A DNA stretch of 33,643 nucleotides from a virus (IMGVR_UViG_3300046001_002224:1-33643); one strand, 5' to 3'; shown: positions 3,169-26,513, numbered from the stretch's first letter. Notes: generated by a model not told the origin, from the letters alone. Numbers and translations are program-made.

Positions 3169-3906
3169 TCTTTCTCTTTAATCGTTTTAATTCAAGTTTG
3201 TTCTTTTGGTCTTCAAATACTAAGAAGTTCAAACAAGCTAATAATGGAAGTCTTGTAACTTCGTCAAATTTTGTAAGGTCACCTCTAGCGATTGCGTATA
3301 TAGATTGATACCATCCCCAGGACTTGTTGAACTGTTCTTCTTCTGAGTAGCCATCTTGATTGCTTCCACCTCCAAAGAGTGTAGCGTAGCCATCAGTAAT
3401 TCGTTGTTTAAATTGTAAAAAAAAACCATCGCACCCATTACGACATCAAGTGGTGCATACTGCATAACCTCCGAATAAGTAGCAGTACCTTCATACGGTT
3501 CAATCTCGTACTTATCACCTTTAGTCTTTACAATAGGTCTAAACATAACCGCCATAGCTTTGTGCATTGTGTCCCACTCAGCTATGTTAGTTTCTATGTC
3601 AATGTACTCACCGTATTCTATATCTTCTAAGCAAGGAATGAATCCAAACTCCTTACCTCCTAACTCAAATCTATGAATGAATTTCTTTTCATCGTTAAAC
3701 ATTTCGTTAAGATGTTCAACCGTTTCATTAATTGATCTTGCATTAAAGTAAACAACCTGAGATAGTTTAATCTTACAGAAGATACTAATCATCTTTTGAT
3801 TGATAAACTCCTCTGAATCTTCTTTATCTACCAAGCGCATAAACAACTGATACTGTTCAAGTGTAAGGTCATTAAGTTTAGATGGTATAGTAATCTCTAC
3901 ATTCAT
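3158..3906 (-). CDS. Frameshifted long form of tail-chaperone-like protein (gpGT-like)
   Basis: A -1 slip on nine T (3425-3417 read on the minus strand) joins codons 1-163 of the 3238-3906 gene to an overlapping frame of 86 codons ending in TAA at 3160-3158, giving about 249 residues. The -1 extension reads like real protein: an acidic stretch (DGYSEEEQF), an aromatic core (KSWGWYQSIYAIARGDL, then FDEVTRLPLL) and a charged helix (FEDQKNKLELKRLKRKNAI). It contains no ATG. The only plausible internal initiator is a GTG five codons upstream of the slip point. This matches the gpG/gpGT layout of tail assembly chaperones, but sits just after terminase rather than next to the tape measure. Confidence 0.6.
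3238..3906 (-). CDS. Tail-assembly-chaperone-like protein, zero-frame short form
   Basis: 222 residues starting MNVEITIPSKLNDLTLEQYQ. The N-terminal part (FGFIPCLEDIEYGEYIDIET, then MHKAMAVMFRPIV) recalls a protein family found beside tail genes in Bacteroidota phages. After the T9 run the zero frame adds about 59 residues (from YNLNNELLMATLHSLE to the end, including GDGINLYTQSLEVTLQ) before TAA at 3238. Both frames after the slip look protein-like, as expected for a gene making two products. Function as a tail assembly chaperone is inferred from the frameshift architecture and neighbours, not from a recognised motif. Confidence 0.75.
   Translation of the reverse strand: MNVEITIPSKLNDLTLEQYQLFMRLVDKEDSEEFINQKMISIFCKIKLSQVVYFNARSINETVEHLNEMFNDEKKFIHRFELGGKEFGFIPCLEDIEYGEYIDIETNIAEWDTMHKAMAVMFRPIVKTKGDKYEIEPYEGTATYSEVMQYAPLDVVMGAMVFFYNLNNELLMATLHSLEVEAIKMATQKKNSSTSPGDGINLYTQSLEVTLQNLTKLQDFHY
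3417..3425 (-). promoter_or_regulatory. T9 slippery sequence for -1 frameshifting
   Basis: The minus strand reads ATG GTT TTT TTT TAC in the zero frame. Slipping back one base gives the codon TTA and then an open frame of 86 codons. A homopolymer of U heptamers is a standard -1 slippery site. No downstream stimulatory hairpin was established. A homopolymer-length error in the assembly is the main alternative. Confidence 0.6.
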
Positions 3907-6257: not shown

Positions 6258-6493
6258 AACTTCTCTAATTCTTTCATGACTTCTTGCCAATATTTAGTAT
6301 TATTAATCATTACCCATTCAGCTTGAGTTATCTTGTCCTCAGTAAAAGATAATACATTCTCAAATACAACAGGGTTAGATTTGATAATTTCATCAACTGC
6401 GTTTATAGCGCATTGAATATTTTGACCTCTACACATATCAAAGTCAATAGACATTTTATGTAATAGATAATCAGCTTTCTCTTTTGCCGTCAT
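6254..6493 (-). CDS. Small protein of a YW-box family (three copies in this genome)
   Basis: 79 residues. The N-terminal helix (EKADYLLHKM), the central QCAINAVDEII and the C-terminal KYWQEVMKELEKL match, in the same order, the plus-strand protein at 25490-25759. They match the 7309-7497 protein more weakly. Such small phage proteins are common in Bacteroidota phages and have no assigned role. The start overlaps the sigma-like gene stop by 4 bp. Confidence 0.7.
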   Translation of the reverse strand: MTAKEKADYLLHKMSIDFDMCRGQNIQCAINAVDEIIKSNPVVFENVLSFTEDKITQAEWVMINNTKYWQEVMKELEKL

Positions 6494-7023
6494 AACAATT
6501 CATAATCTTGGTTAAAGTAATCTTCTATATCTTCACCGACTTCTTTACGTAGTCTAGCTTTACAATTCTTAATAGTGTGGAATACTGATGTTAAGGATAT
6601 ATTAGTCTCAGCTTCTATATCTCTCATTGACATTCCACTTATTAAGTAAAGGTCGAACAGTTTAATATCGTACCAATGCCAATTGGATTTAGATGCGTCC
6701 ACTTTGCTTAGTAACTCACCGTACGCTTGTTCACTGTGCAGACTATCTATAAAAGGAAAATCCCCTAAGTCTTCAATGTTTAACTTTTGAATCTTAGAGG
6801 ATTGTTTCTTGTATGAGATAAAAATAGATCGTAGCGTAAAATAAATATAACCTTTATTAACCTGGTTATCCTTTACTATCTTAGCTTCGGTTGTATAGTT
6901 CAAACATCGTAAGTACATTTCTTGTACTATATCTTCAGCGTAATCATTACAGCCCCAAGACTTAACAAGCTTAACCCATTCACTATGATGCTTCGATATG
7001 TAGGACAACCAGTCTGCGTTCAC
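6490..7023 (-). CDS. Sigma-70-like RNA polymerase factor, candidate late regulator
   Basis: 177 residues from the GTG at 7023-7021. Region 2-like sequence is CNDYAEDIVQEMYLR (about 25-39) followed by GYIYFTLRSIFISYKKQ. The C-terminal region 4-like HTH is at about 122-162 (LFDLYLISGMSMRDIEAETN, then SVFHTIKNCKARLRK). The frame stays open further upstream to a TTG, but a TATATTTG box at 7062-7055 would put the transcript start downstream of that TTG, favouring the GTG. It stands at the head of the run into the terminase genes, so control of late transcription is a reasonable inference. An ECF-like factor for a few genes is the alternative. Confidence 0.75.
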   Translation of the reverse strand: MNADWLSYISKHHSEWVKLVKSWGCNDYAEDIVQEMYLRCLNYTTEAKIVKDNQVNKGYIYFTLRSIFISYKKQSSKIQKLNIEDLGDFPFIDSLHSEQAYGELLSKVDASKSNWHWYDIKLFDLYLISGMSMRDIEAETNISLTSVFHTIKNCKARLRKEVGEDIEDYFNQDYELL

Positions 7024-7054
7024 GGTGCTAATATAAGTAAATATATCGAACAAA

Positions 7055-7761: not shown

Positions 7762-7992
7762 TTAATCGTTTTGAAGTGTGATTGAACCGTGGAATGGTTT
7801 AACGTGTTTTTTTAATAAACCTTCACTATAATATCCATCTGATAAAGATATTCCACGGAAAAGGTGTGGTTCTGTTTTTTGTTGATTATTTTCAACTAGA
7901 TAAATTTTACCGCTTTCTATGCCTATTACCAACTGCACTTTATTCCAGTCGATTACTTCTTCTTTGTCTTGATTGTTTACTGTTACTTTCAT
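7762..7992 (-). CDS. Small unknown early protein, first gene of its operon
   Basis: 76 residues starting MKVTVNNQDKEEVIDWNKVQ. Probably a small beta-rich protein. It is the first gene behind the 8015-8022 promoter and its operator, with a leader nearly identical to that of the 17283-17855 gene. No family recognised. Confidence 0.7.
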   Translation of the reverse strand: MKVTVNNQDKEEVIDWNKVQLVIGIESGKIYLVENNQQKTEPHLFRGISLSDGYYSEGLLKKHVKPFHGSITLQND

Positions 7993-8014: not shown

Positions 8015-8022
8015 CAAATATA
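8015..8022 (-). promoter_or_regulatory. TATATTTG -7 box, early promoter
   Basis: TATATTTG lies 22 bp upstream of the ATG at 7992. The leader between them is shared over 26 bp with the leader before 17855. No -33 TTG is found. The perfect palindrome at 8035-8051 occupies that position instead. Confidence 0.65.
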
Positions 8023-8034
8023 AGTTAAATAATG

Positions 8035-8051
8035 TTTAGAATGATTCTAAA
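8035..8051. promoter_or_regulatory. Perfect 17-bp operator palindrome
   Basis: TTTAGAATGATTCTAAA is a perfect inverted repeat around the central G at 8043, 21 bp upstream of the -7 box end, where the -33 element should be. Derivatives of the same site sit upstream of five other early promoters. Overlap with the -33 position fits either a repressor site or a class-II-type activator site. Confidence 0.65.
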
Positions 8052-8579
8052 TTAGTTCGGCTTAGCATCTATGCAGAATCTAATCCATTCTAAGTGCGAT
8101 TCTTTTGAATCTAATAATTCGTTTGTATCAATTCTACGATACATCTTTCTTTCTTGGTCATGGATAATAAACCTGTGTGCCTTTGCGTGTTCCATTCTTG
8201 TTAGTGGAATAGCATTTTTTGCATCTTCAATATTGTAAGACCAATGATGCATTTCAAATCCTGGCATTGTTGCTTTTCCTAAAAGACTTTTAGCTAAATA
8301 CTTTTCGGGATATTTTTCACGATACTTTCTCATTGCTAATAGTTTAGATTCTGAACTTGGTCTATGCTTTTCTCTATATTCTAAACGATGGTACTTTTCA
8401 CGATGCCTTGCTTGTTCTTTCTCCAATCCTTCAGGAGTAGATATTTTCTTTTCTAGGGTTTGTTTAGAATCTTTCTTAGTACAAGTCTTACATTTCCCTA
8501 AATAACCATCAGCCATTTTAGAATGCTTATAAAATTCTGTCAACTCCTTTTCTTCACTACATTTAAAACATTTCTTCAT
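8052..8579 (-). CDS. HNH-type endonuclease with N-terminal Zn ribbon
   Basis: 175 residues. The N-terminal knuckles C4-x2-C7 and C30-x2-C33 fit a zinc ribbon common in phage HNH proteins. A Lys/Arg-rich linker follows. The nuclease part has H111-H112 (EMHHWSYN), N116, then H131 and H135 in MEHAKAHRF. Such proteins are usually homing-type nickases or endonucleases, and sometimes act in packaging. Here the gene stands alone between the terminator at 8612-8633, with its own -7 box, and the operator of the next operon, which looks like an inserted cassette. Confidence 0.75.
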
Positions 8580-8592
8580 ATTGTTTTTATTG

Positions 8593-8600
8593 TAAATATA
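8593..8600 (-). promoter_or_regulatory. TATATTTA -7-like box with upstream ATTCTAAA half-site
   Basis: TATATTTA lies 14 bp before the ATG of the HNH gene. An ATTCTAAA half-site at 8644-8651 is centred 43 bp upstream of the box, close to the 44 bp seen at three other promoters. The left half of the palindrome is not conserved here. Confidence 0.45.
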
Positions 8601-8611
8601 GTGATAATTAA

Positions 8612-8633
8612 TTAAAAAGGTAGTAAAACTACC
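8612..8633 (-). terminator. Rho-independent terminator after the SSB gene
   Basis: Minus-strand RNA forms GGUAGU-UUU-ACUACC (6-bp stem from 8633 to 8619) followed by UUUUUAAUU. It closes the operon that ends with the SSB gene at 8691. Confidence 0.75.
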
Positions 8634-8690
8634 AACTAATTACATTCTAAATTGAATAAATTAATCAGTAGTTTTACATTTTCATTGTCC

Positions 8691-9044
8691 CTAAAAGGGT
8701 AAATCCAGACTATCCTCCACTTCGTTACTCGGTGCGCTTAGTGTTGGTATGCTCGGTTGCATATTAGCCGCTCCTTCAATTCTCCACGCTTCAAGTGAGT
8801 TGAAATACTTAGCTTCACCTTGTGGGTTAATCCATTCACGACCTCTAAGGTTAAACGATACTTCTACATTCTGTCCTACATTCATTCCATCTAATATACC
8901 GCATTTATCTTGCGTTGCCTGGAATGATATATCTTGTGGGTACATACTAGATGAATCCGTTATTACAAACTCTCTCTTTGAGAATTTATCCGATACTACA
9001 ACAGTCGGATTGATTACTTTTATTACTCCTGTTAATTTAAACAT
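8691..9044 (-). CDS. ssb: DUF3127-type single-stranded DNA-binding protein
   Basis: 117 residues. An OB-fold-like core contains FSKREFVITDSSSMYPQDI, the QDKCGILDGMNVGQNVEVSF segment and GREWINPQGEAKYFNSLEAW, a pattern I associate with DUF3127 of Bacteroidota. The acidic C-terminus EVEDSLDLPF matches the partner-binding tip of SSB proteins. It would coat single strands during replication and ERF-mediated annealing. Last gene of its operon, followed by a terminator. Confidence 0.85.
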   Translation of the reverse strand: MFKLTGVIKVINPTVVVSDKFSKREFVITDSSSMYPQDISFQATQDKCGILDGMNVGQNVEVSFNLRGREWINPQGEAKYFNSLEAWRIEGAANMQPSIPTLSAPSNEVEDSLDLPF

Positions 9045-9051
9045 ACTCTAT

Positions 9052-9276
9052 TTATTTATTTGATTTGTGACGTAAATTATATTCATGGTCTTTAAGATTC
9101 TTATACGCTTTTATTGAATCGCTCTTTAACTTCTTCCACGTTTCACAATGTGAGTAGTCAACATCTTCAACCTCTACTTTTTTAATAACCATTCGCTCTC
9201 TAACTTCATGTTCCAATCCGTTAAACTCATCTAACTCTATCTTAAAGTGTAGATACTCTCTTCCTGATGCTCCCAT
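9052..9276 (-). CDS. Small unknown protein between SSB and ERF genes
   Basis: 74 residues starting MGASGREYLHFKIELDEFNG. Charged and mostly helical, with an NLRHKSNK tail. It touches the ERF gene at base 9276 and ends 7 bp before the SSB start, so it is co-expressed with recombination genes. No motif recognised. Confidence 0.7.
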   Translation of the reverse strand: MGASGREYLHFKIELDEFNGLEHEVRERMVIKKVEVEDVDYSHCETWKKLKSDSIKAYKNLKDHEYNLRHKSNK

Positions 9277-9800
9277 TACTTACTAAGTTTAGTTTTCATT
9301 TCCTCTTTCTTTGCGCTTACTACAACCAAACCACGTTCCGCAGTAGATAAACTTTCCCATCTAGTCTTTAAGTCTTCTAGGTTAGTAGCTAAACTAATCA
9401 CATTAAGTGCAGCAGTTGGGTCTAATTGAATCGGCACGTTGGTCTTAATACTTGCAGCTTGACCATCATCATCAACCGCTTGTAAAGACAATAACGATTG
9501 CAATGTGTAACGTCTGTAATAAGTGATAGCCGAACCCATTGATTGAGGCGTACCGCTTGTTGGTAAGTCAATAAACGATTCTAAACACTCACCGCTTTCG
9601 ATGTCTGCTATTATAGTGAACACACGCCCCTCTTTAATAGGTTGTAACAACACTAAACCTTTCTCTAATAGTATCGGCTCAACCGCCTCGATTAAAGCGT
9701 TTAAATCGGCATAAGTGTTTTTGAAGTGCGGGTTCTTAGCGTTCTTCGCTACCTTGCCAATTTCATTCTTGGCATCATGGATTTTCTGATAAATTTTCAT
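9276..9800 (-). CDS. erf: ERF-family single-strand annealing recombinase
   Basis: 174 residues, near the usual length of the ERF core. It has the hallmark N-terminal NPHFKNTYADLNALIEAV (about 23-40), an EPILLEKGLVLLQP segment, and GSAITYYRRYTLQSLLSL followed by DDDGQAA (about 92-117). ERF proteins anneal complementary strands in phage recombination and concatemer formation. The neighbouring SSB is its expected partner. Confidence 0.92.
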   Translation of the reverse strand: MKIYQKIHDAKNEIGKVAKNAKNPHFKNTYADLNALIEAVEPILLEKGLVLLQPIKEGRVFTIIADIESGECLESFIDLPTSGTPQSMGSAITYYRRYTLQSLLSLQAVDDDGQAASIKTNVPIQLDPTAALNVISLATNLEDLKTRWESLSTAERGLVVVSAKKEEMKTKLSK

Positions 9801-9810
9801 ACTCTAAATT

Positions 9811-10209
9811 TTATAATTGAATACCTAATATTGATAAACTGATTTCATCCCAAGTTGAACTACTTTTGAATCGTTCACTTTCTTCAGTTGAACAATCTAT
9901 TTCTTCCAACTCCATTCCATCACATTCAAGAATTAAAGTAGGTGTTGCCCAATTAGAACATAAGTAAGTGTAATTATCTTTAGTTGGTTTACCATCCTTA
10001 AAGATTACACCACCTGTATAATCCCAATCACCTTGCAAGCCTGCTTCAGCTATTAGATTAGGGTGTGTTTTTAATCTATCTTTAATGATTTCAGCCGCCT
10101 TATCAAAATTAAAGGCTCTTAAAGGAATCCCTAACTTCTTGTTGATTTGTCCTTGTCCTTGTCCGTTTGGATTGAATCCATCCGCAAATGTTAATTCACT
10201 TTTTTTCAT
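9811..10209 (-). CDS. Unknown early protein, first gene of the ERF-SSB operon
   Basis: 132 residues starting MKKSELTFADGFNPNGQGQG. A central helix (FDKAAEIIKDRLKTHPNLI) and a GDWDYTGGVIFKDGKPTKDN beta segment suggest a small globular protein. I do not recognise the family. Its position just before erf suggests a role in recombination or replication. It lies 22 bp downstream of a weak -7 box with an upstream operator. Confidence 0.7.
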   Translation of the reverse strand: MKKSELTFADGFNPNGQGQGQINKKLGIPLRAFNFDKAAEIIKDRLKTHPNLIAEAGLQGDWDYTGGVIFKDGKPTKDNYTYLCSNWATPTLILECDGMELEEIDCSTEESERFKSSSTWDEISLSILGIQL

Positions 10210-10230
10210 ACTCTTTATGTTTTGTTTCTG

Positions 10231-10238
10231 CTAAATTA
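10231..10238 (-). promoter_or_regulatory. TAATTTAG -7-like box of the ERF operon
   Basis: One mismatch to TAnnTTTG, 22 bp before the ATG at 10209, and no TTG at the -33 position. The operator at 10274-10290 is centred exactly 44 bp upstream of the end of this box. A weak promoter with a strong upstream site suggests activation. Confidence 0.5.
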
Positions 10239-10273
10239 CTGCTTAATTCAATACGTTCTACTGTGGTGGCTAG

Positions 10274-10290
10274 TTTAGAATGATTCTAGA
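10274..10290. promoter_or_regulatory. Operator palindrome, one mismatch
   Basis: TTTAGAATGATTCTAGA differs from the perfect site at 8035-8051 by one base. It lies between the stop of the 10298-10516 gene and the promoter of the ERF operon. Confidence 0.65.
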
Positions 10291-10297
10291 TAAGCTA

Positions 10298-10516
10298 TTA
10301 CAGTATGTGCATATATTCAGGCATGCCACATTTTATACAATTTTCACTCATTACCCCATTAAATGAACAAGGCATTTTAATTAAGTCATCACTATTAAAA
10401 TTTTCAAGTTCTTTAGCCTCGTTTACTATTACATAAAACTTAGATGCTGATATATTAATACTAGAATCTGCAATCATACTTCCTAGTTGTTTTTCTATAT
10501 ATTCTACCCCTTTCAT
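10298..10516 (-). CDS. Small unknown protein with C-terminal Cys pair
   Basis: 72 residues starting MKGVEYIEKQLGSMIADSSI. The C-terminus has MPCSFNGVMSENCIKCGMPE, with three Cys and a final His that could hold a metal. It begins 1 bp after the stop of the 50-residue gene upstream. Last gene of the long replication operon. Function unknown. Confidence 0.65.
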   Translation of the reverse strand: MKGVEYIEKQLGSMIADSSINISASKFYVIVNEAKELENFNSDDLIKMPCSFNGVMSENCIKCGMPEYMHIL

Positions 10517-10517
10517 A

Positions 10518-10670
10518 TTATTTATTTATAATTAATTTACGTGCGTCTTCAAGTGCTTGTTGTTGCATTTTATTAAATTTTATTTTTGCCTTTTCCATAT
10601 TATTACTCAATCTTTTCATTGTTTTTAATAAACGCTCACCGCTAACTTTTTTTCCTTTAGTTTGTTTCAT
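10518..10670 (-). CDS. Small basic coiled protein, 50 residues
   Basis: The ATG at 10670-10668 begins MKQTKGKKVSGERLLKTMKR and the frame ends at TAA 10520-10518. Very Lys-rich and helical, which suggests nucleic-acid or protein binding, though no motif proves it. Packed with one base before the next gene and 11 bp after the previous one, which supports its being real. Confidence 0.6.
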   Translation of the reverse strand: MKQTKGKKVSGERLLKTMKRLSNNMEKAKIKFNKMQQQALEDARKLIINK

Positions 10671-10681
10671 CTCTCTATCTT

Positions 10682-11149
10682 TTAATTATTACTTACAAAC
10701 TCATCAAACCATATAACGAAGTCATCGAAGTTACGAACTATAATGTAAATACCTCCTGCACGTTCAATACTCGCTTGGTATTCCTTCTGAACATATGACT
10801 GTCTATCCGCTCCGTACTTAATCTCTATCTTAACTGACCCTCCTCTAATCGTTGCGCTTATATCCGCACTACCTTTAGTTCCTTGTGTTGGAATGTACTT
10901 ACCTTTGAGTTGACGTTCATTCTCGCCTACCTTAATCTTAGCACCTTCAACATACGTTCCTTGAGTGGATATTCTCTCAGCTTGATAACCTTCATAGTTG
11001 ATTATATCAATCACACACTTAGTTAATCCGTTTGCACTATTGTCACTCCATACCTTCTTAGGTATGGCGTGTTCAGGGAATGATGGGTACTTGACCTTCA
11101 TTAGCTTGTAGTGGAAGTCTAGTAGGCGTTGTTTGTTTTGTTTAGTCAT
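10682..11149 (-). CDS. VRR-NUC-like nuclease (PD-(D/E)XK fold)
   Basis: 155 residues. The catalytic pattern is visible: D96 in TKGSADISA, E109 and K111 in VKIEIKYG, then Gln118/Gln121 in SYVQKEYQ and a hydrophobic strand (GGIYIIV). This is the VRR-NUC/resolvase-like arrangement in which a GSxD strand precedes ExK. In a replication operon it probably cleaves branched DNA such as recombination intermediates. It overlaps the Zn-ribbon gene by 4 bp. Confidence 0.8.
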   Translation of the reverse strand: MTKQNKQRLLDFHYKLMKVKYPSFPEHAIPKKVWSDNSANGLTKCVIDIINYEGYQAERISTQGTYVEGAKIKVGENERQLKGKYIPTQGTKGSADISATIRGGSVKIEIKYGADRQSYVQKEYQASIERAGGIYIIVRNFDDFVIWFDEFVSNN

Positions 11150-11367
11150 AGGTCTAAGGGTTTAATACAGTAGTTGAAATGCCTAACAGATGTTATCGTT
11201 TCTGATTTACCACATTCATCACATTTACCTAAATGGCAAGTAGTAACTAAAGACCTTTTTTTCTGCTTTTCGGTTAGGTATTTTTTACCACAATTAAAAC
11301 AAATATACTTCATATACATTTTTTCTAGTTCTTTAATCTTATCAGGTGTAAGTGATATCCAACTCAT
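11146..11367 (-). CDS. Zn-ribbon protein
   Basis: 73 residues. Two Cys knuckles, C23-x2-C26 (CFNC) and C49-x2-C52 (CDEC), with an extra C44 and H45 between them. A structural zinc ribbon for nucleic-acid or protein binding is likely. It overlaps genes on both sides by 4 bp within the replication operon, so it may be an accessory of the nuclease or helicase. Confidence 0.7.
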   Translation of the reverse strand: MSWISLTPDKIKELEKMYMKYICFNCGKKYLTEKQKKRSLVTTCHLGKCDECGKSETITSVRHFNYCIKPLDL

Positions 11368-11717
11368 CTCTCTTTTAATCGTTTAACCTCTAATTCTAAC
11401 CCTTCAATCCTTGCACCTTGCTTCATCATTCTACGCCAAATGAATAGCAGCGAGTTGTAAGTCTTGTGTACTGAATCAATCCTAACTTGATTAGGTAAGT
11501 CTTGTGACTGTTCCTTAATCAATGCTTTCTCAGTTCTGTTAATGATTTGCCTAAGTTCGTGTTCTGCTTTCTGCATTTCGATTCGTAGTAGCAAGTCATC
11601 ATCTTGCTCAGTTCTATTAAGTAGCTTCATAGTGGCATCCTTATCTACTAAACTCTTAATTGTCTGCATACCTAATCCAGTAGATACACGTTCAGCGTTC
11701 CCTAGTGTTGGTGTCAT
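11364..11717 (-). CDS. Coiled-coil protein of the replication operon
   Basis: 117 residues, mainly helical, with a heptad-rich middle (LLLRIEMQKAEHELRQIINR) and a C-terminal EGLELEVKRLKER helix. No enzymatic motif. It starts 5 bp after the upstream stop and overlaps the Zn-ribbon gene by 4 bp. A helicase loader or replication accessory is possible but speculative. Confidence 0.65.
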   Translation of the reverse strand: MTPTLGNAERVSTGLGMQTIKSLVDKDATMKLLNRTEQDDDLLLRIEMQKAEHELRQIINRTEKALIKEQSQDLPNQVRIDSVHKTYNSLLFIWRRMMKQGARIEGLELEVKRLKER

Positions 11718-11722
11718 ATCGT

Positions 11723-11959
11723 CTAAATTACGAATGAGTTACCCTCGTTAATTATAATACCATTAAACGCACCAACCAAGTCGCCTTTACAACCTTGCCA
11801 CATTACATTCTGAATATCAATTTCTAAGTCATATTTAACTTTTATCATTTGCTTATCAAACTCTTTACCATCTGATAACAAAGTTCTAATATCTTCACGT
11901 TGCGATTCGATTACCTTCCTTAGATATTCTAATTCAGCTTTTAATTCTTTCTTTTTCAT
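11723..11959 (-). CDS. Small N-terminal coiled-coil protein
   Basis: 78 residues starting MKKKELKAELEYLRKVIESQ. The first 55 residues are a charged helix and the last 25 a hydrophobic segment (GAFNGIIINEGNSFVI). It overlaps the helicase gene by 4 bp. No family recognised. Confidence 0.65.
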   Translation of the reverse strand: MKKKELKAELEYLRKVIESQREDIRTLLSDGKEFDKQMIKVKYDLEIDIQNVMWQGCKGDLVGAFNGIIINEGNSFVI

Positions 11960-13338
11960 ATCACTCTATTTTTAATTATAAACTTCTTTACTCCGTTGCT
12001 TGTCACTTCTTCATAGTCTAAACCATAGAAGTCACAATATCTTTTAATATCTTTTGTAACCATGTTCTTAGTTTTAGCATCCCACTTCTTAGGAATGTAA
12101 CTAATGTAGTTATCATAGAATTCATTAGCGTTAATATACTCACCTTTATTAACAGCTTTAATACATTCCATTAACTCCTTTGTAATATCCACTTCCAACT
12201 GCTTGTAAGGTAAAGATATTAAATCATAGGTTAACAATCCTTTATCTAAGTATTTCTTTAAGCATTCAATCATGTAGCTGTCAAACCTTGCTTTCTCCAT
12301 TTCATCCCAATCATCATACAACCTATGACCAAAGTATTGTATTGGTGTATGGTTTGCATTAAAGAACGGGCTTAACTCTACTTCAAACTTTCGTGCTTCA
12401 AATGATCCGCCCTTACCTTTGATTGTATAGTTAGTTGTAATCACAACCTTTGGAGAATCTTCAATAGGTAGCTTAATAGTGTCCTTACCTTTATAAGTGA
12501 TACTTATTCCCTCAGTGATTACACTAAACAAATTAATGAATGGAAATCCTTTCTTAACATCATCGAATACCATTACTTGACAATCAGTCTTAATCGCTTG
12601 GTAAGGAAACGCAGCGTCGAATCTAAATGACTTGCCATCCAATGCTTGTACTTTCTTTAGCTTACCAACCATGTTACAAAGTAAACCCTTACCACTCCTT
12701 CCATTCGGTTCATCAGATATAAGTTCATCATTCAATATAACCGCTTTATTGTCACCTCCAGCGTTATAAGAATGAAGTAAGTAACCTATAACAGTTTGTA
12801 GTGTATTATACCTGTCTACATTTTCACCTGCTATCTTCCAAACAAATGTTCTAAACTCGCTTTGATGGTGGTCAGCTTCGATAAAGTTTCTTTTTATTAC
12901 TTGGTCTTCCCAAATTGATAAACCGAAATCAGTATAAGGTTTTAACTTAGCACCATCTTTCGTTACTTCCATCACTCCATTCTGATAAAATAGATATGCA
13001 GTATCTTTAGTATCTCTGATAACTTTGATTTCTTCAGTAGTTAGCATAGATAGATATTGTCTTGTGAATGTAGATGCTTTACCTGTCATTAGATTGTATA
13101 CCCTTTGACCTAAGTCATTATCTAAGATATAATCTAATACAAAGTCTTTAATCTCAAACTCGTCTACAATCTCTAAAAATATACCGTTCTTCTTTATAAA
13201 GTTGAATCCACTAACATCATTCGGTTTGTTCTTTATGAAATTATGATGCTCCAGGAAACGCTTGAAATTATAGTTGTTCAATGCAAGTTTACCGTTTTCA
13301 CTTTCTGAGTAGAATGGCTCTAAATTATTTGAATTCAT
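11956..13338 (-). CDS. SF3-type replicative helicase/ATPase
   Basis: 460 residues. The helicase core lies in the second half: Walker A EPNGRSGKGL (about 210-219), Walker B QVMVFDDV (about 254-261), motif C with sensor Asn in KVVITTNYTI (about 297-306) and an Arg-finger candidate in FEARKFEVELS. The N-terminal 200 residues look like the linker domain of phage primase-helicases but show no primase catalytic triad. It would unwind DNA at the phage origin. The candidate origin and structured leader lie just upstream of this operon. It overlaps the 65-residue gene by 14 bp. Confidence 0.88.
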   Translation of the reverse strand: MNSNNLEPFYSESENGKLALNNYNFKRFLEHHNFIKNKPNDVSGFNFIKKNGIFLEIVDEFEIKDFVLDYILDNDLGQRVYNLMTGKASTFTRQYLSMLTTEEIKVIRDTKDTAYLFYQNGVMEVTKDGAKLKPYTDFGLSIWEDQVIKRNFIEADHHQSEFRTFVWKIAGENVDRYNTLQTVIGYLLHSYNAGGDNKAVILNDELISDEPNGRSGKGLLCNMVGKLKKVQALDGKSFRFDAAFPYQAIKTDCQVMVFDDVKKGFPFINLFSVITEGISITYKGKDTIKLPIEDSPKVVITTNYTIKGKGGSFEARKFEVELSPFFNANHTPIQYFGHRLYDDWDEMEKARFDSYMIECLKKYLDKGLLTYDLISLPYKQLEVDITKELMECIKAVNKGEYINANEFYDNYISYIPKKWDAKTKNMVTKDIKRYCDFYGLDYEEVTSNGVKKFIIKNRVI

Positions 13339-13522
13339 GCAATGTTATTTTAGTGTAGCCATTTGTAGGTTCTAATACATATTCTTTAATCGAAGCAATA
13401 TCTTTGATTAGGTTAAAGATTTTCTTATAGTGGATTACATCGTTTAGATGGATTGTTGCATCACTATATCCAATAATTAGATTTGGATATGCTTCTCGTA
13501 GTCTTTCAATTACTTGGTTCAT
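13325..13522 (-). CDS. Small unknown protein, first gene of the replication operon
   Basis: 65 residues starting MNQVIERLREAYPNLIIGYS. A short alpha/beta pattern, no motif recognised. Its ATG lies only about 16 bp after the T tract of the leader terminator, so its expression must depend on read-through. It overlaps the helicase gene by 14 bp. Confidence 0.65.
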   Translation of the reverse strand: MNQVIERLREAYPNLIIGYSDATIHLNDVIHYKKIFNLIKDIASIKEYVLEPTNGYTKITLHEFK

Positions 13523-13538
13523 GATAAATTAGTTTAAT

Positions 13539-13592
13539 AAAAAAGCCCCTATTATACTCATCGGATACCACCTCGACTTTCTAATAAGGGCT
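13539..13592 (-). terminator. Leader terminator/attenuator before the replication operon
   Basis: On the minus-strand RNA, AGCCCUUAUUA (13592-13582) pairs with UAAUAGGGGCU (13554-13544). This is 11 bp including one G-U, followed at once by a U tract. The wobble exists only in minus-strand RNA; the plus strand would have a C-A mismatch. The loop is 27 nt. It sits between the promoter at 13636-13665 and the first gene, as in transcription attenuation. Confidence 0.65.
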
Positions 13593-13624
13593 AAATAACG
13601 CCTTTAATTCTATAATGTGGTATC
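13544..13624 (-). promoter_or_regulatory. Possible H-type pseudoknot in the leader RNA
   Basis: Besides the terminator stem, GAUACCAC (13624-13617) is complementary over 8 bp to GUGGUAUC (13571-13564), which lies inside the terminator loop. The order a, b, a', b' with connecting segments of 24, 10 and 9 nt is sterically possible for a pseudoknot. The same repeats could instead be protein-binding DNA sites. Confidence 0.45.
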
Positions 13625-13635
13625 GAATAACGAAG

Positions 13636-13665
13636 TAAATATAAGTATTAAATCAATACCACCAA
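13636..13665 (-). promoter_or_regulatory. Promoter of the replication operon (TTG-N19-TATATTTA)
   Basis: TTG at 13665-13663 is followed after 19 bp by TATATTTA at 13643-13636, matching Bacteroidota promoter spacing. The transcript would start near 13629 and carry a leader of about 107 nt. ATACCAC at 13656-13662 lies within the spacer and its inverted copy GTGGTAT at 13617-13623 lies just after the start, flanking the -7 box symmetrically. Confidence 0.65.
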
Positions 13666-13918
13666 CAAAATGAGAAAAATAAATACAACTTTTCTACTTT
13701 TATTCTACTTTTTTCTAACTTTTTTCTGAGTGGTGGCGTGGGTTTGAGGTCGATTAGGAGAAAAAAGGAAAAAAAAACGGAAAAAAAATATTTTTAAGCT
13801 ATAAGGGTTTTTGAATATAAAAAAAGAATAAGAGAAATTTTATTTTTTTCTACTTTTAGCACTCTAGCCCTAGTAAACATTGAGAATAAAATAGTAGAAA
13901 GTTAGAATAAAGCAGAAA
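13664..13918. other. AT-rich candidate replication origin with phased TTCTAC repeats
   Basis: This 255-bp stretch has no gene. TTCTACTTT-like units start near 13692, 13703 and 13713, and a TTCTG near 13724, a spacing of about 10-11 bp; another is at 13848-13857. In the opposite orientation, GTAGAA, GTTAGAA and GCAGAA occur at about 13894-13917. Between lie purine runs of A with a few G. Phased repeats in two orientations beside the helicase operon suggest an origin or a bent regulatory region. Confidence 0.4.
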
Positions 13919-13944
13919 AAAACCCCACCGATCACTCAATGGGG
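13916..13944 (-). terminator. Rho-independent terminator of the repeat-protein gene
   Basis: Minus-strand CCCCA (944-940) pairs with TGGGG (927-923) over a 12-nt loop and is followed by seven U. It lies directly after the stop at 13951. Confidence 0.75.
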
Positions 13945-13950
13945 CTTAGA

Positions 13951-15042
13951 TTAGTTAAAGAACTGTTCAAACTGTTGCGAACCATACTCTCCTTTAGTTA
14001 ACTCTATTATCTTTGCTATGTTCATCTTTCGCTTAGTCAAGTTCTTACGGCTTAGAAACTCCTTAACACCAAACTGACACGCCCCAGTTATAACCCTGTA
14101 ACACTTAACCGCATCTTCAAAGGATAGTACACTTTCTAAAGTCATTCCTTTGTAATCGTCTTTGCTTCGATTACCTATCTTAAATATTAAATCTTCTTTA
14201 GCTTCTTTGATCGTATCACCATGCGAGTAATTTCCGTTACCATCAGTCACAACAAAAAATACTTTCTCAGTTGCATACTTCTTAACCTTCCAAACTAATC
14301 CTTTCTTATGTAAGACCTCACAGAATACACCATCTACTTTGATGTATTTGCCGTTTCTCCATGACAATACATATGGACATTTTCTATTAATGTTGCTTGA
14401 ATCTTTTATTTGAGTACCTCTCAAATCTAAGCTACCTCCCACGGTTAGGTTGTCAGGTAGTACACTCACACTCGTACCTTCCAAATATAAGTCACCTCCC
14501 ACGGTTAGGTTGTCAGGTAGTACACTCACACTCGTACCTTCCAAATCTAAGTAACCTCCCACGGTTAGGTTGTCAGGTAGTACACTCACACTCGTACCTT
14601 CCAAATCTAAGTCACCACCAACAGTTAGGTTGTCAGGTAGTACACTCACACTCGTACCTCTCAAATATAAGCTACCTCCCACGGTTAGGTTGTCAGGTAG
14701 TACACTCACACTCGTACCTCTCAAATCTAAGCTACCTCCCACGGTTAGGTTGTCAGGTAGTACACTCACACTCGTACCTCTCAAATATAAGTCACCTCCC
14801 ACGGTTAGGTTGTCAGGTAGTACACTCACACTCGTACCTTCCAAATCTAAGTAACCTCCCACGGTTAGGTTGTCAGGTAGTACACTCACACTCGTACCTT
14901 CCAAATCTAAGTCACCTCCCACGGTTAGGTTGTCAGGTAGTACACTCACACTCGTACCTTCCAAATCTAAGTCACCACCAACAGTTAGGTTGTCTTTCGT
15001 GATTCCGTACTGTGCTAAAAATTCCCAATCTTTCTTTTTCAT
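13951..15042 (-). CDS. Tandem-repeat (NLTVGG) phage protein of unknown function
   Basis: 363 residues. A short head (MKKKDWEFLAQYGITKD) is followed by ten 20-residue repeats of the type NLTVGGxLxLxGTSVSVLPD (about residues 17-215), then a non-repeated C-terminal domain of about 150 residues (CPYVLSWRNGKYIKVDGVFC, later YRVITGACQFGVKEFL). Only three positions vary between repeats: D/Y/S, D/Y and E/R. The regular pattern suggests a beta-solenoid rod. Similar proteins occur in various phages, to my knowledge without a proven function. It is a single-gene unit with its own promoter, operator and terminator. Confidence 0.85.
   Translation of the reverse strand: MKKKDWEFLAQYGITKDNLTVGGDLDLEGTSVSVLPDNLTVGGDLDLEGTSVSVLPDNLTVGGYLDLEGTSVSVLPDNLTVGGDLYLRGTSVSVLPDNLTVGGSLDLRGTSVSVLPDNLTVGGSLYLRGTSVSVLPDNLTVGGDLDLEGTSVSVLPDNLTVGGYLDLEGTSVSVLPDNLTVGGDLYLEGTSVSVLPDNLTVGGSLDLRGTQIKDSSNINRKCPYVLSWRNGKYIKVDGVFCEVLHKKGLVWKVKKYATEKVFFVVTDGNGNYSHGDTIKEAKEDLIFKIGNRSKDDYKGMTLESVLSFEDAVKCYRVITGACQFGVKEFLSRKNLTKRKMNIAKIIELTKGEYGSQQFEQFFN
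14408..14991 (-). repeat. Ten-copy 60-bp coding tandem repeat
   Basis: The 60-bp units are nearly identical in DNA, with differences mostly at the three variable codons. The unit near 14581-14640 and the first coding unit near 14941-15000 share the same rare variant (ccaccaacag in place of cctcccacgg), so parts of the array were copied internally. Recent expansion by slippage or unequal recombination is likely. Confidence 0.9.
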
Positions 15043-15065
15043 ACTTTATGTTTTTGTTTATGTGG

Positions 15066-15125
15066 TAAAAATAATACATTAATCAATACTAAAATCAGTT
15101 TGTTGTAGTTTATACTCATTCTAAA
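15066..15125 (-). promoter_or_regulatory. Promoter and operator of the repeat-protein gene
   Basis: TATTTTTA (15073-15066) lies 23 bp before the ATG at 15042. An imperfect operator (15109-15125; right half ATTCTAAA exact, left half with two mismatches) is centred 44 bp upstream of the box end. No TTG is found at the -33 spacing. Nothing else is seen in this gap apart from the terminator at 15131. Confidence 0.5.
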
Positions 15126-15130
15126 TAAGC

Positions 15131-15157
15131 AGAAAGCCCTCCACGAATGAAGGGCTT
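15131..15157 (-). terminator. Probable terminator after the 15193-15573 gene
   Basis: AAGCCCT (15157-15151 on the minus strand) pairs with AGGGCTT (15140-15134) over 10 nt, followed by TCTGCTT. The U tract is short and interrupted, so efficiency is uncertain. Confidence 0.55.
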
Positions 15158-15192
15158 AAACTAACCAAAACATCAGGTGCTATGAAAACCTG

Positions 15193-15573
15193 TTACGGTA
15201 AAGATAGGTAAATAATCCGTTCCGATTCACTAAGCCCGTTAAAATTATATTCAGGTATTAGCATTTCTTGTTCACTCGAGTAAATAGCTTGTTTAACTTG
15301 ACCGAAGTATATCTTACCTGCTAACTTACCAGCGAACCTATCATGTAGTTGCATGGCACGTATTAGAGTTATTCCATACACCATCATAATTTTATTTATA
15401 GGCATATCTTTCAACTCAACCCATTCACCATCTTCAAACCATTTACGTGCTATCCTTGCAGCGTGTAGTTGAGATACTTTACATTTCTTTGCAGTCCAAA
15501 CAGCCGACGTTGTATAGTAGTAGCCTATTATACGTTTTCTTTCAATGTCTTTCATCCTTAAATTTTTCTTCAC
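15193..15573 (-). CDS. HTH-containing protein, candidate early regulator
   Basis: 126 residues. A helix-turn-helix-like segment is visible at about 20-45 (TTSAVWTAKKCKVSQLHAAR and following RKWFEDGEW). The rest is helical. The reading suggests DNA binding, and no other larger HTH protein is present apart from the sigma-like factor, so it is a candidate for the early operators. That link is inference only. It overlaps the upstream gene by 32 bp and ends before a terminator. Confidence 0.6.
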   Translation of the reverse strand: MKKNLRMKDIERKRIIGYYYTTSAVWTAKKCKVSQLHAARIARKWFEDGEWVELKDMPINKIMMVYGITLIRAMQLHDRFAGKLAGKIYFGQVKQAIYSSEQEMLIPEYNFNGLSESERIIYLSLP

Positions 15574-15781
15574 ACCATTGTCTAAACGACTGTTGTATCT
15601 TTATCTGTTGTTCCATTGCTTCAGTATCAGCAGTATCTACCATGTGAGAATCGAACGATCTAATTGCATTGATTAGTAAGTTACGTTTCATCTTTGCCGT
15701 TCGTTGCATTGGTATATCTTCTAGGAAGTCAGCGAGTACGGGTAGTACCTGGATTGCTAGTATCTTTGATGTTGTGGTCAT
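15542..15781 (-). CDS. Small unknown helical protein
   Basis: 79 residues starting MTTTSKILAIQVLPVLADFL. Helical, with the phrase MQRTAKMKRNLLINAIRSFD. It starts 1 bp after the stop of the 49-residue gene and overlaps the HTH gene, so it is co-translated with it. No family recognised. Confidence 0.65.
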   Translation of the reverse strand: MTTTSKILAIQVLPVLADFLEDIPMQRTAKMKRNLLINAIRSFDSHMVDTADTEAMEQQIKIQQSFRQWCEEKFKDERH

Positions 15782-15782
15782 T

Positions 15783-15932
15783 TTACTTAATATTAGATAA
15801 TGCGATGTAAAGATTTGATATGGCTATTTGACCATGAAAGAATCTATCAGAAGCAGTAGGTATATTTTCTAATATTCTTTCTAATTGAAAAATCTTGTTT
15901 TCTAATGCCATTTTTAATTCTTGCTTATTCAT
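15783..15932 (-). CDS. Small unknown protein, 49 residues
   Basis: The ATG at 15932-15930 begins MNKQELKMALENKIFQLERI and ends at TAA 15785-15783. Its ATG overlaps the upstream TGA in an ATGA arrangement. Helical. It lies in a chain of coupled small genes from 16311 to 15193. Confidence 0.6.
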   Translation of the reverse strand: MNKQELKMALENKIFQLERILENIPTASDRFFHGQIAISNLYIALSNIK

Positions 15933-16099
15933 TTCACTTCGTTTAATTTGATTCGTCTAATCTCCTGCATTAACTCCACGTTGTAAGTTGTGAAGTGTTG
16001 CTTTCTGTAAGCATCGTTAACTCCCATCGGTGGGGTGTAACTATTCTCTTTAGTCGTTGGCTTGGTCGACTTGTTTAGCCATTTTGCTAGTGGTATCAT
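15929..16099 (-). CDS. Small unknown protein, 56 residues
   Basis: Begins MIPLAKWLNKSTKPTTKENS and ends at TGA 15931-15929. Both ends overlap neighbours by 4 bp (ATGA), strong support for a translated gene. It has a PPMGVNDAYRKQHFTTYNVE segment and a basic C-terminal helix. Function unknown. Confidence 0.65.
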   Translation of the reverse strand: MIPLAKWLNKSTKPTTKENSYTPPMGVNDAYRKQHFTTYNVELMQEIRRIKLNEVK

Positions 16100-16311
16100 A
16101 TTAATTTAATTTGATTAATTACTTTGTCAATAGATCCCTGTACTCGATTACAGTTTATCTTACATTCCTTAACTTGTTTGAATGAATTAGCAACATCGTC
16201 TGAACTAAACTCTTTGCCTTTCTTAGCAAGTGAATGTATCATTTCAGCGTTGTCTAACATGGATTGCCATAACTCTAATTCATTGTAGAGTTGATTTAAT
16301 GATTCTGTCAT
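16096..16311 (-). CDS. Small helical protein, first gene of an early operon
   Basis: 71 residues starting MTESLNQLYNELELWQSMLD. Almost entirely predicted helix, probably coiled coil. It is preceded by a good promoter (TTG-N19-TAACTTTA) with the early operator upstream. Function unknown. Confidence 0.65.
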   Translation of the reverse strand: MTESLNQLYNELELWQSMLDNAEMIHSLAKKGKEFSSDDVANSFKQVKECKINCNRVQGSIDKVINQIKLI

Positions 16312-16335
16312 ATCTTTTATGTTTTGTTTATGGTG

Positions 16336-16365
16336 TAAAGTTAATACTTTAATTCATGTTTGCAA
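16336..16365 (-). promoter_or_regulatory. Early promoter TTG-N19-TAACTTTA
   Basis: TTG at 16365-16363 and TAACTTTA at 16343-16336, 24 bp before the ATG at 16311. The operator at 16379-16395 is centred 44 bp upstream of the -7 box end. Confidence 0.6.
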
Positions 16366-16378
16366 TATTCAAGCGTAG

Positions 16379-16395
16379 TTTATTTTGATTCTAAA
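16379..16395. promoter_or_regulatory. Operator site, right half exact
   Basis: TTTATTTTGATTCTAAA: the ATTCTAAA half is exact and the left half has three mismatches. It overlaps the last codons of the 16380-16511 gene, so coding constraint may explain the decay of one half. Confidence 0.45.
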
Positions 16396-16511
16396 TAAGC
16401 CTTAACTATTGCTTTAATCGGCTCAACGTGTTCTAACTTAACTCTGAACGCTATTGTCTTGGTCGGCTTTCCTTTCGGTCTACCTGCTCCTTTACGTGCG
16501 CCTCCTTTCAT
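16380..16511 (-). CDS. Small basic GARKGAGRP protein, possible ribbon-helix-helix DNA binder
   Basis: 43 residues starting MKGGARKGAGRPKGKPTKTI, then AFRVKLEHVEPIKAIVKAYL. Small proteins with a (G)GARxGAGRPK start and an IAFRV strand followed by helices are frequent in Bacteroidota phages and resemble ribbon-helix-helix or Arc-like DNA binders. Its start overlaps the upstream gene stop by 4 bp. A regulatory role is inferred from the basic head and strand-helix pattern only. Confidence 0.6.
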   Translation of the reverse strand: MKGGARKGAGRPKGKPTKTIAFRVKLEHVEPIKAIVKAYLESK

Positions 16512-16639
16512 TTTGTTTCGTTTATTATCTTGATAATTTCAATCGTGATTTCTCTTACAGAGTCTATTATTGATGATAAATTCTTTGTTGTATCTTCAAT
16601 TATTATTTCACAATCACCTTTTTTTACTCTTATTTTCAT
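16508..16639 (-). CDS. Small unknown protein, 43 residues
   Basis: Begins MKIRVKKGDCEIIIEDTTKN at 16639, 1 bp after the stop of the 16641-16889 gene. A longer open frame extends to 16723 but would overlap that gene by 83 bp, so the shorter start is preferred. A beta-hairpin followed by an Ile-rich helix. Function unknown. Confidence 0.55.
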   Translation of the reverse strand: MKIRVKKGDCEIIIEDTTKNLSSIIDSVREITIEIIKIINETK

Positions 16640-16640
16640 A

Positions 16641-16889
16641 TTAGTTATTGTTAAAATTTTTTTTAGCATAAAAATAAGTCCATCCAAAATGACCTGTACT
16701 TTTAAATTCAGGAGTATAGCCATAAAAATTACAAGACTGTCTTAATACATCTATGTTTTTAGTGTGTATAGGTAAGTCATTATTATTTATAAATTCTATA
16801 CCATTTTCTAATTTATTTAGGATTCTACCTAATTCAACACCTAGAGTAAAAGACTCTGATTTATCTGTAAATTCTATTATTAAGTTCAT
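16641..16889 (-). CDS. Small conserved phage protein, unknown
   Basis: 82 residues starting MNLIIEFTDKSESFTLGVEL. It contains GRILNKLENGIEF and an aromatic C-terminus with Cys (CNFYGYTPEF, GHFGWTYFYAKK). I recall similar short proteins in Bacteroidota phages without function. Follows the 16893-17132 gene by 3 bp. Confidence 0.65.
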   Translation of the reverse strand: MNLIIEFTDKSESFTLGVELGRILNKLENGIEFINNNDLPIHTKNIDVLRQSCNFYGYTPEFKSTGHFGWTYFYAKKNFNNN

Positions 16890-16892
16890 GTT

Positions 16893-17132
16893 TTAATATT
16901 TAATTTTTGGGAATACAATTTCATAATGAGTTCTATGATTTATAGACATTGTAATCAATACAGCAGCTCTGTAATAAGATTTAACCTTGTTATTTTCAAA
17001 AGAAATATAACTTAATTCTATGTTTAATACATCATTAAATCTATCAACTAACTCCTGACCTTCATTAGTCCATTGATTAACTCTTTTAGCTAATCTTTCA
17101 GTCATTAATTTTATTTCAGTTTCAATTTTCAT
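16893..17132 (-). CDS. Small unknown early protein, 79 residues
   Basis: Begins MKIETEIKLMTERLAKRVNQ at 17132. The frame extends upstream to 17189, but the TATATTTG box at 17163-17156 lies inside that extension, so the 17132 ATG is the likely start. An N-terminal helix is followed by beta strands (IELSYISFENNKVKSYY, RAAVLITMSI). Function unknown. Confidence 0.65.
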   Translation of the reverse strand: MKIETEIKLMTERLAKRVNQWTNEGQELVDRFNDVLNIELSYISFENNKVKSYYRAAVLITMSINHRTHYEIVFPKIKY

Positions 17133-17155
17133 ATTCTTTGTTTTTGATTGCCTTA

Positions 17156-17186
17156 CAAATATACGAATAGTTTTGATACTTGCAAA
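17156..17186 (-). promoter_or_regulatory. Consensus promoter TTTG-N19-TATATTTG
   Basis: TTTG at 17186-17183 and TATATTTG at 17163-17156, separated by exactly 19 bp: the best Bacteroidota-type promoter in the window. The ATG at 17132 follows 24 bp later. Confidence 0.75.
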
Positions 17187-17208
17187 CATTTATTTAAAAT
17201 AGTTGTTA

Positions 17209-17225
17209 TTTATATTCATTCTAAA
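17209..17225. promoter_or_regulatory. Operator site, right half exact
   Basis: TTTATATTCATTCTAAA, with two mismatches in the left half. Its centre (17217) is 54 bp upstream of the -7 box end, one helical turn further than the 44 bp at three other promoters. Confidence 0.5.
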
Positions 17226-25970: not shown

Positions 25971-26513
25971 TTAAGCCCCTAATACAATAGTCACTCCAGC
26001 AGTAGTCAACAACGCATCTGTTGTAGCTTCCATGAAGTTAGCAGGTACAGGTTCCATTCCTACAAGTGTCAAAGTGTAACCGCTTAAGTCACCCATTGCA
26101 GCACCTGTTGTAATAGTTCCACCTGTTACATCCATACCGTGCTTTAAACCGCACATGAAGTAGTTAGAGTTATTATCTACAACGATAACAGTTGGATTTC
26201 CGTAAGCTAACAATTTCACTTGTTTATGAGTAGCAATGTCTTGCTTAGTCAAGGTTAAGTTTAATGTTTGCTCAAAGTAAGTAGTACCCGTATCTCTTGA
26301 AGTTACAATTGTTTGTTCAAATGAACTAGCCGCCCCTTTAAGGTCGTACTTATATCCGCTCGGTGTACCCGTTACGGTTTCAACAACATCAGTATTAGTA
26401 GAATCATAAGTTACCCCTGTCATGTCACCTTGGTTCATGAAGAAGATAGCCTTAAGCCCACCTACTGTGTCTTTACAAGGAAGTAATCTCCCTAATGATA
26501 AATCACAAGCCAT
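25971..26513 (-). CDS. Probable major tail tube protein
   Basis: 180 residues starting MACDLSLGRLLPCKDTVGGL. The beta-rich body with FEQTLNLTLTKQD, LLAYGNPTVIVVDNN and the end phrase TLTLVGMEPVPANF fits tail-tube-like proteins of Bacteroidota siphoviruses as I know them. It is flanked by two strong terminators, so it could be expressed as its own abundant message. A different head or tail structural role is possible. Confidence 0.65.
   Translation of the reverse strand: MACDLSLGRLLPCKDTVGGLKAIFFMNQGDMTGVTYDSTNTDVVETVTGTPSGYKYDLKGAASSFEQTIVTSRDTGTTYFEQTLNLTLTKQDIATHKQVKLLAYGNPTVIVVDNNSNYFMCGLKHGMDVTGGTITTGAAMGDLSGYTLTLVGMEPVPANFMEATTDALLTTAGVTIVLGA

Follow-up and report, generated by a model that had tools for sequence, protein, structure and literature searches.

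The window analysed here is a complete IMG/VR virus record of 33,643 bases, in which nearly all large open reading frames lie on the minus strand. The nearest relatives of its portal and terminase are those of the Nonlabens phages P12024S/L and, therefore, the window is considered a tailed phage of flavobacteria. Several of its early promoters are preceded by palindromic boxes. The boxes, the promoters and two small proteins proposed to read them are given below, a gap being the number of bases that separate the 17-mer from the following -7 box on the coding (minus) strand.

8035..8051, minus strand: perfect palindrome TTTAGAATCATTCTAAA, directly 3' of the HNH endonuclease stop codon, 12 bp before the -7 box 8022-8015 and overlapping the -33 region
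8015..8022, minus strand: -7 box TATATTTG, of the promoter that serves 7762-7992 and the genes from there to the sigma-like gene 6490-7053
8635..8652, minus strand: half-site (A)TTTAGAAT (8644), weak and without a second half, in register at gap 34 to TATATTTA (8600-8593), before the HNH endonuclease gene 8052-8579
10274..10290, minus strand: box TCTAGAATCATTCTAAA with flank CTTA, gap 35 to TAATTTAG (10238-10231), before the operon of the 9811 gene, the Erf annealing protein and SSB
15109..15125, minus strand: box CTTA-TTTAGAATGAGTATAAA, gap 35 to TATTTTTA (15073-15066), before the repeat-protein gene 13951-15042
16379..16395, minus strand: box CTTA-TTTAGAATCAAAATAAA, gap 35 to TAACTTTA (16343-16336), before the operon 16311-15193, which holds the HTH gene
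17209..17225, minus strand: box TTTA-TTTAGAATGAATATAAA, gap 45 to TATATTTG (17163-17156) with -33 TTTG, before the small-gene operon 17189-16380
15193..15573, minus strand: HTH-like protein with a variable N-terminus and a conserved C-terminus (YFGQVKxAIYS)
16380..16511, minus strand: 43-aa basic protein, by eye a strand and one helix (incomplete ribbon-helix-helix-like), no Pfam match

The 15109 box lies directly 3' of the terminator-like hairpin of the upstream operon, and the 16379 box overlaps the final codons and the stop of ORF 16380-16511. Within the repeat-protein gene, about ten 60-bp tandem repeats (14400-14995, minus strand) encode 20-aa units (TSVSVLPDNLTVGG.L.L.G); the sister phages L004 and L067 carry at this position an unrelated 12-aa repeat, followed by a homologous C-terminal part. 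The gene 6490-7053 (minus strand), just before the terminase genes, encodes by eye a Sigma-70-like protein, and its positional counterpart in P12024S, gp33, is annotated as Sigma-70 region 2. This protein, whose gene follows the 8035 box promoter in the direction of transcription, could serve as a late sigma factor.

All palindrome coordinates given by the first-pass annotation are confirmed, and its proposal that palindromes before early genes form a regulon is borne out by the excess of sites over shuffled sequence and by their coding-strand orientation. Nine sites lie within 3 mismatches of TTTAGAATNATTCTAAA, against 1.03 expected, a number never reached in 100 shuffles, and the oriented motif has 19 matches, compared with 1-5 in shuffles. 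Five palindromic sites and one half-site stand before coding-strand promoters. The motif is not equally common inside genes, and the regulon claim stands. Weak matches at 3527, 8463, 8517 and 23863 are inside genes, look like chance and were discarded.

The gaps of 12, 34, 35, 35, 35 and 45 bp correspond to the centre distances of 21, 43, 44, 44, 44 and 54 bp described earlier, and an on-phase gap to TAnnTTT[G/A] is found at 3 coding-strand sites, against 0.005 expected (200 shuffles). The phasing of the sites, at gaps of 34-35 and 45 bp, upholds the proposed fixed distance, single helical face and class I-like activator geometry. The description of the promoters as weak, several of them without a -33 box, also holds, with a clear -33 TTTG at 17163 only. 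The -7 box is TATATTTG only at 17163 and 8022; at the sites with gaps of 34-35 bp it is off consensus (by two bases at 10238), and the start sites there are consequently predictions. The earlier motif is correct in part. The palindrome is real and well placed; its promoter-proximal half is degenerate in the window, TAAA alone being kept, and the conserved 5' flank, CTTA at three sites and TTA at the fourth, lies outside that motif. Three full sites read CTTA-T[T/C]TAGAATSAnnnTAAA on the coding strand, and three boxes have CTA in place of TTA 3' of the core.

The full element is a 23-bp sequence, TTA-TTTAGAATnATTMTAAA-TTA, that recurs widely, both in other virus contigs and in chromosomes of Bacteroidota. 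A search of IMG/VR with TTATTTAGAATNANNNTAAACTA, free of any promoter condition, gives 60 stretches in which TAnnTTTG lies downstream mostly at 34-36, 44-46, 55-57, 67 and 77 bp and is hardly ever found upstream (period 10.5 bp, Rayleigh R=0.63, p=1.5e-5). A second viral scan, which required only TAnnTTTG anywhere 30 to 60 bp away, gives 73 non-redundant sites with gap peaks at 35-36, 45-47 and 56-57 and nearly empty valleys (period 10.5 bp, R=0.67, Rayleigh p~5e-15). For a small sample of 26 TTTA-N9-TAAA control words from this DNA, R is 0.24 at 10.5 bp. On this analysis, the phasing is that of a protein which would contact RNA polymerase from one helix face at variable whole-turn distances, in the manner of a class I activator. 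The sites lie upstream of the -33 region and their distances change by whole turns, as in class I-type promoters, activation itself being predicted.

The flanks were not used in the searches and are common to phage and host sites, with TTA before and TTA after conserved at 66-93% per base. The 11 out-of-phase sites are without the TT of the upstream flank and without the T at the second downstream position. Twenty virus records picked for a site contain 65 forward matches (at most 2 mismatches) versus 8 for the reversed pattern, the selection explaining about 1 match each. Chance in AT-rich DNA is ruled out as the origin of the boxes by the shuffles, the reversed-pattern control, the flank conservation and the phasing. 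The arrangement of a box followed by the Erf operon recurs in L028 and L051. Among eight cultured flavobacterial phages, the only convincing case is Olleya phage Harreka_1, which has on-phase boxes with 1-2 mismatches, one in a divergent intergenic region (gap 46 one way and 34 the other way) and one at 26290 (gap 47); the other seven have no such boxes. The trait is thus common and far from universal. A literature search for the motif itself or for Fur control in flavophages found none.

The same element was recovered at 113 non-redundant host sites in a scan of the genome collection. Their gaps to the -7 box peak at 46-47 and 56-57 bp, gap 35 being rare. The gene most often found downstream encodes the cytochrome subunit of alternative complex III; NqrA, SdhC, a 4Fe-4S ferredoxin and others are also present. 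The gap is 46-47 or 57 at the alternative complex III cytochrome and NqrA genes, 36-48 at SdhC and 56-57 at the ferredoxin. Pfam confirmed the names of representative target genes, a CcmE-like protein being without a Pfam match. A heap at gap 30 was set aside as probably coding sequence, because several of its sites are followed by one short conserved peptide (MGDAIKVPIIVRLQGTN...), which we take to be the end of a succinyl-CoA ligase gene. Most of the 2-mismatch matches in two complete genomes appear to be chance occurrences.

Within the genus Polaribacter, the exact motif is present in 32 of 40 genomes, compared with 1 match in all for the reversed-pattern control. At 13/13 loci with a recognised feoB (30 loci scored), exactly 4 bp separate the perfect palindrome from the -7 box downstream of it. 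The TTATAAA version is found at gap 46-47 at ActA (5 loci) and at gap 57 at NqrA (2 loci, consensus -7 box). Across the host loci L364-L390, the perfect palindrome marks feoB and TTTAGAATnATTATAAA marks the act and nqr operons. Sites with 1-2 mismatches in Polaribacter and Flavobacterium include one at a ferritin gene (gap 47) and boxes that cover and adjoin the promoter of a TonB-dependent receptor.

The candidate binder is Fur. In Riemerella anatipestifer (Flavobacteriales) the Fur boxes are ATTTAGAATTATTCTAAAT / ATTTAGAATTATCCTAAAT, purified Fur shifts the promoter fragments in EMSA and a fur mutant has rhuB derepressed >20-fold (PMC5609570, PMC10986502). The 8035 palindrome and the Riemerella consensus core TTTAGAATnATTCTAAA agree at every position outside the free centre, and the other window boxes have 1-3 changes. 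The core of the element thus matches a Fur-bound box of the same order, and the same sequence is present at iron-regulated host genes, both of which are expected of a Bacteroidota Fur box. In Elizabethkingia, the quinol:cytochrome c oxidoreductase (complex III-type) operon is 4.1-8.6-fold higher in iron-rich medium, and the siderophore receptors fall. The Riemerella boxes and the Elizabethkingia response suggest, therefore, that iron-loaded Fur represses from boxes over promoters and activates from boxes upstream. The proposed activation by Fur in Bacteroidota is based on box position and iron-response data rather than on fur mutants, and the regulation sign assigned from box position on target function and one iron RNA-seq study. 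It is possible that iron-uptake promoters covered by a box and iron-using genes with a box upstream in phase form a position code for Fur in Bacteroidota. Such a code (activation from an in-phase upstream box, repression from a box on the promoter) would predict the regulation sign from sequence.

The phages appear to borrow this regulator. No FUR domain is detected in any of the 20 motif-bearing virus records (the window and 19 others), the controls being positive, and the phages are therefore devoid of a detectable Fur gene. On the other side, 5/5 hosts tested have FUR-domain proteins, 2-4 each. The regulator gene is thus in the hosts tested and its predicted site before the phage genes, as in the capture of a host regulator of the Pho-box type.

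With a probability of about 0.7, we consider the palindromes of the window to be phage-borne copies of the site bound by host Fur (the flavobacterial Fur box), mostly placed as upstream activator sites. At the sites with gaps of 34-35 or 45 bp (half-site included), the box would occupy the same side of the helix as it does before the hosts' iron-activated genes for respiration and iron storage, the two distances differing by about one helical turn. In Flavobacterium, the -7 box of sigma-A promoters (TAnnTTTG) occupies -12 to -5 (PMC9723704), which places the centres of the phage boxes at approximately -55 to -66 from the start site. From there, iron-loaded Fur would activate weak sigma-A promoters in a class I-like manner, and the activated targets would be early genes (recombination/SSB, regulators and small genes). 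The predicted Fur box at 8035 overlaps its promoter, a repression-like arrangement also seen at host feoB, where 4 bp separate the boxes from the -7 box. Iron-loaded Fur bound at 8035 would be a repressor. We infer that Fur binds the phage sites, with the signs given above, that the promoters respond to iron during infection and that the activating protein is Fur itself. The early genes of this phage, and of many unrelated phages, are probably switched by the host iron status and not by a phage regulator.

The first-pass annotation favoured a dedicated phage regulator. As the sole reading this is ruled out by an element shared with hosts and unrelated phages, and as a claim it is probably wrong, since the element is common to Bacteroidota chromosomes and many virus contigs in which neither proposed protein is found. 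The operator is not confined to phages with the regulator gene. The better of the two candidates is the HTH protein 15193-15573, which would bind the palindromes and control the early genes, either as a dedicated regulator or as a phage mimic of Fur specificity. The evidence for such a role comes from the sister phages, in which HTH and operator are swapped together, even where the structural genes are 76-98% alike. Their operator consists of two direct repeats, ACCACTCATC and ACCGTTCATCACA (ACC..TCATC), 20 bp apart, which end 28-29 bp before the -7 box wherever this box is recognisable (L004:78-120, 3523-3560 and 8641-8680; also L067 and L071-L083). Many late/structural genes of L082 and L083 have that level of identity to those of the window, yet these phages carry the direct-repeat operator; the contig of L083 also holds the other, sister HTH type (L071). 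The sister HTH proteins are 58-69% conserved among most direct-repeat phages and 30-35% identical to that of the window, the N-terminal part being the most divergent. Operator and HTH travel together in this group, which suggests that the HTH protein reads the direct repeat there. However, these operators are direct repeats and not palindromes, no TTTAGAAT box was found in the sister phages that have them, and many virus contigs and host chromosomes have the palindrome with its phasing but yielded no HTH homologue. Searches for HTH homologues in the phage and genome collections gave none. The HTH protein is thus an improbable reader of the palindromes and is more likely linked to another operator. 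Its AlphaFold model (pLDDT 47) is too poor to interpret. Just before one sister operator, a 215-aa gene (L004:2877-3524) resembles by eye Mom-like DNA modification proteins.

The phased boxes could be read by a different host regulator, such as a second member of the Fur family or some other redox/iron activator. The hosts have several FUR-domain proteins, and there is a small difference between activated sites, whose proximal half is TTATAAA-TTA, and repressed sites, which are perfect palindromes. However, both kinds of site share one core, iron genes are found at both and the shared core is bound by Riemerella Fur, which makes another host protein a little less probable still than the HTH protein. 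The weakest candidate, put forward in the first-pass annotation, is the 43-aa basic protein 16380-16511, which as an Arc-like mini repressor on the TAGA-N5-TCTA core would repress the early operons; the core spacing resembles that of Arc operators, the gene was not found in sister phages without the palindrome and its stop codon overlaps a box, but a single helix after a strand with no family match, boxes placed upstream of promoters, poorly for repression, and other virus box loci without the gene (one weak match excepted) make this role very unlikely.

With Fur retained as the preferred activator, the comparison with the sister phages suggests a wider pattern. The direct-repeat operator is absent from five host genomes and, for this reason, looks phage-specific. 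We give even odds to a scheme in which a broad set of Bacteroidota phages made host Fe-Fur the activator of early transcription, with a full start only in iron-replete cells, and in sisters a phage regulator took over from Fur, using an operator of its own at almost the same position, as a switch between host-sensed and autonomous control. If the Fur reading is true, a host sensor links the start of infection in abundant marine flavobacteria to iron in the cell, which is a limiting nutrient. This reading can be tested in a cultured pair, Olleya phage Harreka_1 and its host.

In Stx1 prophages, the toxin promoter is under host Fur. The likeness is a phage-borne promoter under host Fur, here predicted, whereas a single toxin promoter is repressed there and several early operons are predicted to be activated here. 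For this comparison, Fur is mentioned in PMC10042803. Cyanophages (S-PM2d, P-SSM2) carry Pho boxes, sites of the host nutrient-sensing regulator PhoB, before their own genes; these phages are lytic and the host protein binds in EMSA, the DNA polymerase promoter included (PMC10976474). The cyanophage boxes concern phosphate and scattered genes, whereas those described here concern iron and a phased set of early operons. Compared with the Flavobacteriia Fur regulon of Riemerella anatipestifer (PMC5609570, PMC10986502), the core, the kind of host target and the box over the feoB promoter are alike, whereas the present boxes are in phage genomes and mostly upstream in helical phase, an activating geometry. 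Metal-bound Fur also activates via a DNA site at Salmonella hilD (PMC3089636), which differs in phylum, promoter type and spacing. As a minor observation on the records, Shigella phage Henu10 (OQ791282.1) matches at the coordinates and identity of Riemerella phage PT15 (ON933637), and its host label looks wrong.
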